Source: Defluviicoccus sp.
GTDB taxonomy: Bacteria > Pseudomonadota > Alphaproteobacteria > MPNO01
Length of the DNA stretch: 64,000 nt
Assembly (NCBI GenBank): GCA_022823775.1
Contig: JAJEHI010000103.1
Location: forward strand, 1-64,000
Reading direction: 5' to 3'
A program made the translations under genes and the position numbers. The notes under the pieces were generated by a model that did no database searches, was not told the origin of the DNA, and saw only the letters and a program-made list of their open reading frames with translations. Below are positions 9,309 through 13,388 of the stretch, one piece after another (the stretch's first letter is position 1; every line of letters begins with the position of its first letter).

Positions 9309-11321
9309 ATGAACCCCTTCGTCCGTCTCGAACTGATCCGCGAGTCGCTGATCGCCGTCGTCAACGAGATGCGGGCGAACATCATCCATTCGTCCTACGC
9401 GCCGATCATCTACGAGGGGCACGACTTCTCCTGCGCGCTGATGTCGGCGGACGGGCGGCAGATCGCCCAGGGGCTGGCCGATCATCCGCTTCACATCTTC
9501 GCCGTCCCCTATTCGACTCAGCGGGTCGTCGAGGCCTTCGCGGACGACATCCGCGAGGGCGACCTGTTCCTCCACAACGACCCCTATACCGGCGGCACGC
9601 ATCTGAACGACGTGCTGCTGCTGCACCCGGTGTTCTTCGAGGGCGAGCTCGCGATGTTCGCGGCGATCCGTTGCCACTGGAACGACGTGGGCGGCATGAC
9701 GCCGGGCAGCCTGTCGGGCCGGGTGAACGAGATCTACCAGGAGGGGATGCGGATCGCGCCCACCCGGATCTGCTCGCAAGGCACGATGAACGATGCCTTC
9801 CTCCGGCTCCTGTTCGACAACATGCGGGGGCATGCCGAACGGCTCGGCGACTTCAACGCGATGCTGGGCACGGGGCGCAAGGCGGCGGAGCATATCGGCC
9901 GGCTGTTCGAACGCTTCGGCGGCAGGGGGCTGCTGGAGGGTATCGACGAGCTGATGCGCCGGTCGGAGGGGCTGCTGCGCGCGCGGATCGCCGAGTGTCC
10001 CGACGGCGAGTATTTCGCCGACGGCTATATCGAGAGCGACGGCACGAATCCGGAACCGCTGGTCGTCCGCCTCAAGCTCACCGTGGCGGGCGACACGATC
10101 GTCGCCGACTTCACCGGCACCTCGGCGCAGACCAACGGTCCTACCAATTGCGGCCCGGCGATGGCGCTCAACGGGGTCGGCACCATCGTCAAGGCTTTCC
10201 TCGACCCGGAAACGCCGATCAACCACGGCTCCTTCAACCCGATTACCGTGATCGCGCCCGAGCGCAGCATCATCAACGCCCGCGAGACCTCGCCCTGCGG
10301 CGGCATGGCGGAGGTCAAGTTCCTTATCGACGCGGTGGTCGCGTCCGCGATGAGCCAGGTGGTCCCCGAGATGAGCGTCGGCGACCTCAAGGGCGGCGCG
10401 AACCACATCCACATCGCCGGCCCCACGCCCGCGGGGGACGGCACGTTCATCCATTACGAGTGGCCCGCGGGCGGAACCGGCGCGTCGACGGGGGTGGACG
10501 GCAACAACGCCTGCCGCAGCTACAACGAGGGCGATTTCAACTCGATCCAGTCGGTCGAGACCGTCGAGGGCGCGTTCCCGCTCAGGGTCGAGCGCTGCGA
10601 GCTGCGCCAGGGTTGCTGCGGCGACGGGGCGTTTCGCGGCGGGTTCGGGCTGCGCCGCGATATCCGCGTGCTCGGCGAGGGCGCGATGCTCTCCGTCCTG
10701 TCGGAGAAGAACGTCATTCCCCCTTACGGGGTCGAGGGGGGCAGGGCGGGGGCATCCAACCGGTTCTTCGTCATTCGCGACGGCGAGACGGTGGAGCCGT
10801 CCGATATGCCGGGCAAGGTGTCGGGCTTCCGGCTCCAGGCGGGCGACGTCGTCCGCGAAGAGACCGCCGGCGGCGGCGGTCACGGCGATCCGCTATCGCG
10901 GGATCCCGAACGCGTGCGGGCCGACGTGGTCGAGGACTACCTGACCGCTCTTCAGGCCGAACGGCGCTACGGCGTGAGGCTGGGCCCCGACCTTTCCGTC
11001 GACGAAGCGGCCACGGAGGTGAAGCGGGAAGCGCTGCGCGGGGCGCGGAGTCCGGTGCCGATCGAGGCGGCCAACGAGGAGATGTTCGACGGAACGCGGC
11101 GGCGGATCGTCGTGCCGGCCGTCATCGCCGGGAAGGCCGGCATCGCCGACGGCGCGCTGGTGGAGATTTCGACCGGCCGCGGCGCGCCGCTCAGGGCCTG
11201 GGCGCAACTCGCGGACGAAGGAACGGCCCTGCTCGCCGGCGCATCAAGCCTCGCCATCGTCCGTGCCTCGCCCGGCGATACGGTCGAGATCGCGCCCGCC
11301 CGGTCGGTTCCCGAGTTGTAG
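9309..11321 (+). CDS. hyuB: Hydantoinase B / 5-oxoprolinase family protein (HyuB)
   Basis: ANIIHSSYAPIIYEGHDFSCALMSADGRQIAQ, LHNDPYTGGTHLNDVLLLHPVF, ADFTGTSAQTNGPTNC, GGGGHGDPLSRDPERV. Confidence 0.93.
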   Translation: MNPFVRLELIRESLIAVVNEMRANIIHSSYAPIIYEGHDFSCALMSADGRQIAQGLADHPLHIFAVPYSTQRVVEAFADDIREGDLFLHNDPYTGGTHLNDVLLLHPVFFEGELAMFAAIRCHWNDVGGMTPGSLSGRVNEIYQEGMRIAPTRICSQGTMNDAFLRLLFDNMRGHAERLGDFNAMLGTGRKAAEHIGRLFERFGGRGLLEGIDELMRRSEGLLRARIAECPDGEYFADGYIESDGTNPEPLVVRLKLTVAGDTIVADFTGTSAQTNGPTNCGPAMALNGVGTIVKAFLDPETPINHGSFNPITVIAPERSIINARETSPCGGMAEVKFLIDAVVASAMSQVVPEMSVGDLKGGANHIHIAGPTPAGDGTFIHYEWPAGGTGASTGVDGNNACRSYNEGDFNSIQSVETVEGAFPLRVERCELRQGCCGDGAFRGGFGLRRDIRVLGEGAMLSVLSEKNVIPPYGVEGGRAGASNRFFVIRDGETVEPSDMPGKVSGFRLQAGDVVREETAGGGGHGDPLSRDPERVRADVVEDYLTALQAERRYGVRLGPDLSVDEAATEVKREALRGARSPVPIEAANEEMFDGTRRRIVVPAVIAGKAGIADGALVEISTGRGAPLRAWAQLADEGTALLAGASSLAIVRASPGDTVEIAPARSVPEL

Positions 11322-11369
11322 GCGGACGTGGGGACCGCCGCGGCGCCGGCCGAAACGGATCCGCCCTAA

Positions 11370-11422
11370 TGTTTCACGTGAAACAAAGGTCAGCATCCTT
11401 GACCTATGTTTCACGTGAAACA
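11370..11422. promoter_or_regulatory. parS: Two perfect 16-bp parS-type ParB-binding sites
   Basis: TGTTTCACGTGAAACA at 11370-11385 and 11407-11422, flanking an AGGTCA-N7-TGACCT inverted repeat. Confidence 0.88.
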
Positions 11423-11719
11423 TTGGTCCGATATGGGACTATTTTTCGCGTCCCCGGGGGACGCGGCGGGTTCCCCGTGTGCGCCGTCCGGGAGGTACGG
11501 AGCCGGCGGATCTCTCCGCCGCGCCAGCGCGTTGTCGGGGATTGCTGCGGGATCGGTTCGGAAAACCGGCGTGGCCGCCCCAACGGCGGGGCCAGGTCGT
11601 CGGGATGTCAACTATGGTTAACACCTTGTGCGCCCTTGTCACCGCCGTCACCCCGGACTTGGCTGGAACAACATCTGGCCGGCCACGGTGCGCCCCGGTT
11701 GCCGTGCGGCTCCGGTATC

Positions 11720-11824
11720 CCCCTCACCCTAACCCTCTCCCCGCGGGGGAGAGGGGACGCGCTCGCCGAACCCGCTCTGCCTTCCCCCCTCCCGCTTGCG
11801 GGAGGGGTTGGGGGAGGGTGGATG
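11720..11824. repeat. Intergenic palindromic repeat, family A
   Basis: CCCTCACCCTAACCCTCTCCCCGCGGGGGAGAGGG ... CTCCCGCTTGCGGGAGGGGTTGGGGGAGGGTGG. Confidence 0.85.
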
Positions 11825-11921: not shown

Positions 11922-13388
11922 TTGCCCGACCTCGATCGTCCCGACTCTGGAAGCGCGAAAGACGAACTGCGCTTCGTCGTTTGCGGGTCCCCCGGCGAGG
12001 GCAGGTCGGCGTTGCTCCGGCGGCTGCCGTGGGATGCGGGGACCATATGGAGCGACCGGCGGAAGGCCGTCGCCGACGATGTGCGGAACCTGCTCGCGGC
12101 GGCATCGCGGGCCGATCTGGCCGTCGTGCTCGTCGATGCGGGGAAGGGGGTCGAAACCCGAACCCGGTTCGACAGCTACGTCGCGCGGCTGATGGGGGTT
12201 GGGTGGGCGATCCTCGTGGTTGACGGGATGGATTCGGTCGGCCGCGACGAAGGCGCGTTCTCCGCCGTCGCCGCGGAATTCCGGGCGTTCGCGGACGCGG
12301 TGGGTTTCGAGAGCGTGAGCGCGGTTCCGGTTGGCGCGCCGACCGGGGAGAACGTCGACACGCCCGGCGGCAACATGCCCTGGTACGGCGGCCCGACGCT
12401 GATGGAAATGCTGGAAACGGTCGGCATCGACCGCGGCGATGGGGCGGCCGGGGAAGACCGGGCCCCCGAAGCAGCGGACCAGTTCGCCGTCGACCTCGTC
12501 TGGACGGGTACGCGGCCGATGCTGCCGGAGCGGCGCTATGCGATCCGTCTCGCCGACGCCTCCGCGATCGCGCAGATCACCGATCTCGCGCACCGGATCG
12601 ACGTCGACACGCTGGGGCGCATGGCCGCCAAGACGCTCGGGTCCAACGAGATCGGCTACTGCAAGCTGTCGCTCGGCCGGCCGGTCGCGCTCGATGCCGG
12701 GGCCGGCGGTCGCCGGCGGGACGCCTTCGAGCTGATCGACCGCTTCGACGGCACGATTGTCGGCGCGGGCGCGATCCGCTTTGCGCTCCGCCGCGCGAGC
12801 AACGTCGTCTGGCAGGACATCGGGGTCGACAAGGCGGCGCGGGCGCGCGCGATCGGGCAGCGGCCCTGCATCCTCTGGCTGACCGGGCTGCCGGCGGCGG
12901 GCAAATCCACCATTGCCGACCGCGTGGAACAGAAACTCCAGGCGTCGGGCAGACACACCTACCTTCTCGACGGCGACAACGTCCGCCACGGGCTCAGCCG
13001 GGATCTGGGCTTCACCGACCGGGACCGGGTCGAGAACATCCGCCGGGTGGCCGAGGTCGCGAAGCCGATGGTCGACGCCGGGCTGATCGTCATCGTTTCC
13101 TTCATCTCGCCGTTCCGGTCGGAACGCCGGATGGCGCGCGAGCTGATGGAACAGGGAGAGTTCCTGGAGATCTTCGTCGACGCGCCGCTCGAGGTCTGCG
13201 AAGCCCGCGATCCCAAGGGCCTCTACGCCAAGGCCCGCAGGGGCGATCTCGCGAACTTCACCGGGATCGACTCCCCGTACGAACCGCCGGAGAACCCCGA
13301 TTTGCGCATCGACACCACCAGGCTGTCGCCCGACGAGGCGGCGGCGGAGGTGGTAGGGCTGTTGCAGGCGTCTGCGTCCGGCCCCTGA
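11922..13388 (+). CDS. cysC: Degenerate CysN (sulfate adenylyltransferase GTPase)-CysC (adenylylsulfate kinase) fusion
   Basis: TTG start. N-part aligns to CysN/NodQ but with [13 protein letters not shown] and no DTPGHEQ; C-part intact Cys[68 protein letters not shown]. Confidence 0.85.

Follow-up and report, generated by a model that had tools for sequence, protein, structure and literature searches.

The question raised by this locus is why two perfect copies of a chromosomal partition site, parS, stand side by side in an intergenic region of a Defluviicoccus genome, and whether they mark a centromere close to the replication origin. The window, by which is meant the whole stretch of 64,000 nucleotides that was analysed, contains two exact copies of TGTTTCACGTGAAACA (Table 1) and no other match at up to three mismatches. 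Shuffled versions of the window held 0.06 parS matches on average and never reached two; this, with the approximately 1e-4 sites that base composition predicts against the exact genome counts given below, rules out chance. The first-pass annotation had described two perfect sites lying 37 bp apart, centre to centre, within a near-palindrome of about 55 bp. Exact matching confirmed the sites and their spacing, and 46 of the 55 positions from 11369 to 11423 are identical to the reverse complement; the nine that differ make up the 7-bp centre and the two edges of the spacer. Gene coordinates bear out the placement it gave between hyuB and the CysN-CysC gene: the block lies 48 bp 3' of the stop of the Hydantoinase_B gene (9309-11321) and 589 bp before the CysN-CysC fusion (12012-13388). 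Its statement that parA and parB are missing from the window also holds, and no parB is found on the window's contig.

Table 1. Features of the twin parS block and the repeat copy that contains it
Feature	Position	Strand	Remarks
parS site 1	11370-11385		Perfect 16-bp palindrome, exact match; sharp left end of the repeat (copy alignment)
21-bp spacer with inverted repeat (IR) AGGTCA-N7-TGACCT	11386-11406		Arms at 11387-11392 and 11400-11405
parS site 2	11407-11422		Perfect 16-bp palindrome, exact match; its centre is 37 bp from that of site 1
Small stem-loop TGGTCCGATATGGGACTA then TTTTT	11424-11446	+	Weak terminator-like; found in most twin copies
GC-rich palindrome CGCGTCCCCGGGGGACGCG	11447-11465		Core GTCCCC[C/G]GGGGAC
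Repeat copy, approximate extent	11368-11541	+	Right end inferred from copy alignment

The same arrangement recurs at many other places in the genome. Its 4.8 Mb, in 198 contigs, hold 35 exact parS sites, 44 at up to one mismatch and 47 at up to two, and many are paired at exactly 37 bp. Most copies are part of a composite repeat between genes, made up of a parS, the 21-bp IR, a second parS that is intact or decayed and, often, a hairpin, a T-run and the GC-rich core given in Table 1. The spacer common to the pairs has the form w-AGGTCA-n-TGACCT-w, and the tail (small stem-loop, T-run and GC-rich core) is found on one side. On the left the repeat stops abruptly at the first parS, with unrelated flanks beyond; on the right the boundary is vaguer, and similarity extends about 120 bp further in some copies. 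The window copy reaches at least to the end of the hairpins at 11465, and probably to about 11541. A terminator search found two terminator-like sites, compared with a shuffle mean of 1.2.

The five available genomes of the genus, all draft assemblies with an estimated contamination of approximately 4-9%, contain 134 parS clusters, 51 of them multi-site, and 53 of the 54 intervals between neighbouring sites measure 37 bp. In a further 49 modules the first parS is intact and the IR is present, but the second parS, at the usual distance, has decayed and matches at 8.1 of 16 positions versus 3.8 for shifted controls. Because the remnant stands at the same distance in these modules, the ancestral unit was probably parS-IR-parS. 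In sequence sampled around parS, all 37 occurrences of the strict IR pattern (1.55 Mb) touch a parS, and the tail core has 81 occurrences no more than 140 bp from a parS and two elsewhere (1.69 Mb from the five genomes). Variants also exist. A third sub-type (L185, L196 and L197; G001 contigs C9, C95 and C96) has a single parS with the IR and the tail on opposite sides and a common stretch ending in ...CTTGACACGGGACGCG. In L021:9907-9959 of the window's own genome, and in a few copies of G002, the IR spacer is reversed with respect to the tail, as though an inversion had turned the stretch between the two palindromes. The sole multi-site cluster with another interval (33 bp; L257:9247-9295, G003:C203) has a spacer without the IR.

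Exact parS sites number 23-52 per genome in all five members of the genus, whereas 22 further genomes from the order have 0-4, and the 37-bp twin with its 21-bp spacer is present in all five and in none of 36 others. Among the matches listed in a scan that took a single genome for each species, the AGGTCA spacer was confined to two contigs of 'Defluviicoccus sp. RHO2_bin_2'; site positions in one of these agree with those of G002:C132, which places the genus. So far the repeat is known from this one genus alone. A genome from a sister genus of the same family (G005) has just two bare parS sites without the IR, one in the stretch of rsmG encoding NVSRETL and one approximately 2 kb away, at the mnmG-mnmE position; we infer that this two-site state was the starting point of the expansion in the genus. 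The parS pairs of other bacteria have a broad range of spacers, so twin spacing is not a general rule and the 37 bp belongs to this repeat. A plasmid or phage origin was rejected, since blastn searches with the 195-bp block gave no match in either collection. No description of parS inside repeats was found in the open-access papers searched.

The identification of the sites as parS, claimed in the first-pass annotation from the consensus, is strengthened by the parAB region. A parS lies inside rsmG in all five genus genomes, and parB lies 1.5-4 kb from a parS in four of them; in three there is a twin or triple 37-bp array with the same spacer. In the window's own genome, contig C3 carries mnmG, rsmG with its internal parS, and a triple array adjoining mnmG, and parAB is found at the end of a separate contig, C103. 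In the ParB encoded there all three Pfam domains are present, and across the DNA-reading helices its alignment with Caulobacter ParB is free of gaps. This ParB retains the contact residues Q162, G170, K171, S172, R173, N178, G201 and R204 (Caulobacter numbering via the alignment, read against PMC7383237), among which R173 and G201 are absolutely conserved and specify parS (PMC7383237). The array at the mnmG-rsmG-parAB locus and a ParB with parS-reading residues suggest that the dispersed sites are very probably real ParB sites. Each genus genome also has a weak match of about 70 residues to the ParB N-terminal domain (G000:C15:89198 (L039), G001:C104, G002:C162:11113, G003:C117 and G004:C157); in four genomes the match sits in a short open frame (114-142 aa), and the one in G002 is 3 kb away from a parS twin.

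Comparison of 25 orthologous twin pairs, which are partly dependent because some species recur, gives identities of 99.1% for parS, 96.0% for the IR arms, 70.3% for the IR centre and 73.1% and 76.9% for the outer 100-bp flanks. The parS value is inflated by the selection of loci at up to one mismatch per site. The IR played no part in the selection of twins, and its conservation is therefore a fair result (arms versus flanks, p=2e-18). Because the arms are far better conserved than the flanks, the IR is probably a second, putative protein site. The arms are also asymmetric: among 54 twins TTGACC is invariant save for one T to C change at its first base, and GGTCA is replaced by GGACA in 18. 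This asymmetry looks like that of a protein site and not of an RNA stem.

Several explanations can be weighed against this evidence. One is an ordinary origin-proximal parS cluster that is only bigger than usual; the first-pass annotation had implied a centromere close to oriC at this coordinate. Four of the five genomes do have copies at 2-10 kb from dnaA, and copies also adjoin parAB. In most bacteria, however, parS sites are clustered within 5-40 kb (PMC8357415), and here, even with all parS contigs joined, the sites would span no less than 0.63 Mb in the genome of the window and 1.08 Mb in G002. GC skew across the window is near zero or positive, with no inversion found at this coordinate; dnaA and parAB are on other contigs, and the hyuB ortholog is 1.7 Mb from dnaA in the closed genome of a distant relative (G011), so that the evidence, weak on the last point, does not support the implied position. 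Orthologs of the neighbours of six own loci are found within 0.35 Mb of dnaA (at 2.884 Mb) in G011, from a query hand-picked for conserved genes and biased toward origin-near ones; those of the neighbours of three other loci, on C154, the window and C10, are 1.4-1.9 Mb away. One neighbour of the C75 locus has its ortholog 1.3 Mb from dnaA in G011, although that locus adjoins dnaA in its own genome, which makes gene order a poor guide to origin distance here; with G011 belonging to another family and being the single closed genome used from the order, the comparison is suggestive only. Among 11 control segments, only SerS/TatC/SecDF (one region, approximately 1.45 Mb from dnaA) and RecQ (0.18 Mb) have clear positions in G011, too few for a statistic. 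The loci are locally clustered, with six gaps below 5 kb, a number reached in 0 of 20,000 uniform simulations. Of the random scatter of identical motifs that the first-pass annotation had named as evidence against its view, the scatter is real and the randomness is not. An origin cluster leaves the common IR, the tail and the 37-bp unit unexplained, and a lone oriC centromere is insufficient, as dozens of copies have one architecture. We regard this explanation as distinctly improbable.

A selfish palindromic repeat of the REP or MITE kind might instead have taken parS from the parAB region and be spreading as an intergenic parasite, its parS sites being passengers that are tolerated or serve the stability of the element. 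The placement of the copies agrees with this: none of 51 twin arrays lies inside a gene, though coding regions make up 81% of the sequence (according to a simple custom gene caller), convergent gaps are enriched (22 of 49 twin arrays versus 19% of background gaps, p=9e-5) and divergent gaps are depleted (4 of 49 versus 28%, p=1e-3). So do its construction from palindromes, its dedicated tail and one clean case of presence and absence, in which a single-parS (type-B) copy in G004 faces an empty intergenic place in both G002 and G000. No clear target duplication was seen at this insertion in comparison with the two empty orthologous sites. Approximately 26 positions are common to at least two species (the window position recurs in G002:C193), a number that is approximate because one 12-member group may fuse several positions through repeats. 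Many copies are accordingly old, yet parS and the IR arms have been kept far better than the rest, and this explanation appears unlikely. Least probable, and very much so, is an RNA element in which both parS sites of a transcript pair to form a single long hairpin with a role in mRNA termination or protection. Both strands give a strong RNA fold (z of -7.9 and -6.9), the copies favour 3' ends, and a T-run follows the small stem. The 49 modules with an intact first and a decayed second site show that the pairing is not maintained, GGACA variants disrupt the IR stem, with no compensating change, in 11 of the 39 distinct spacers, and an Rfam search gave no match. The uncompensated decay of the second parS disfavours an RNA hairpin as the main constraint.

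The explanation that we consider likely is that the block belongs to a family of composite intergenic repeats, specific to this genus, that bear real chromosomal parS sites, and that the genus has undergone a repeat-borne expansion of its centromere. Each copy would provide one or two loading sites for the chromosomal ParB and probably one site, the IR, for another DNA-binding protein. ParB would load at each copy as a CTP clamp, spread locally and recruit Smc, so that dozens of copies would form an extended, multi-island centromere beyond the origin cluster, and the protein on the IR may hold, block or mark ParB there. The elements may spread as small insertions, and their 37-bp units may change by recombination or slippage between identical parS sites. 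Whole elements have been gained or lost, and arrays at three orthologous positions differ in length by 37-bp units: three species have a triple mnmG array where G001 has a twin, the C102 array is a twin in G000 and G002 and single in G004, and the array at C154:38113 is single in G000 and a twin in G002. Against this explanation, scattered strong parS sites are harmful in Caulobacter, where misplaced parS lowers fitness (PMC5815017), and scattered sites have been argued to provoke Smc collisions and called counterproductive (PMC8357415); many loading-competent copies are therefore unexpected. A more elaborate and less probable proposal is a distributed two-component centromere, in which each unit would join parS to the IR as the site of a dedicated protein that works with ParB; a mobile intergenic repeat would have multiplied these units across the chromosome, so that ParB and Smc could load at many islands beyond the origin cluster.

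The sites resemble the ParB/Spo0J chromosomal parS of Bacillus subtilis and Caulobacter in their identical 16-bp consensus, in adjoining mnmG-rsmG-parAB and in having a ParB with parS-specific residues. They differ in that there are dozens of copies, which are not confined to a 5-40 kb cluster and are mostly built into one fixed composite unit that includes a conserved IR. REP and BIME elements are mosaics of short palindromes between genes that prefer 3' ends and avoid promoters; the present repeat is likewise dispersed, intergenic, palindromic and found in several copies per genome, but its core palindrome is parS. Many exact parS sites per chromosome are also known from Streptomyces and Listeria (20-23) and from Myxococcus xanthus (22-24), where they are reported near the origin or parAB, whereas here they are repeat-borne and occupy at least 16 contigs per genome (PMC7333895, PMC3778016, PMC3899335). 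Reviewed genomes reach 20-24 sites, placed near the origin (PMC7333895, PMC3778016). Scattered parS is known from few lineages (PMC8357415). In B. subtilis eight sites extend over approximately 0.75 Mb, similarly well past a tight cluster (PMC8357415); here there are more sites, in tandem 37-bp units with common flanking modules, and relatives have 0-4. The ParB sites of Pseudomonas aeruginosa are also dispersed genome-wide, but these are 7-bp half sites and not full perfect 16-mers (PMC10419367, PMC7022226).

Why parS numbers vary and why the sites stay clustered is a named open question (PMC7333895). Here a whole genus has apparently moved from about two parS sites to dozens via a recognisable repeat. 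Orthologous gains, losses and changes of unit length among five species turn centromere expansion into a comparative problem with a defined start, and the conserved second site beside parS is a testable candidate accessory element.

Two further features were observed near the block. A second short repeat, CCCTCACCCTAACCCTCTCCCCGCGGGGGAGAGGGG, is found downstream in the same intergenic region, at 11721, and similar GC-rich hairpins flank some other parS copies. In the CysN-CysC fusion the CysN GTPase part is shortened (the CysN model aligns from position 94 only), and the APS kinase part is complete.
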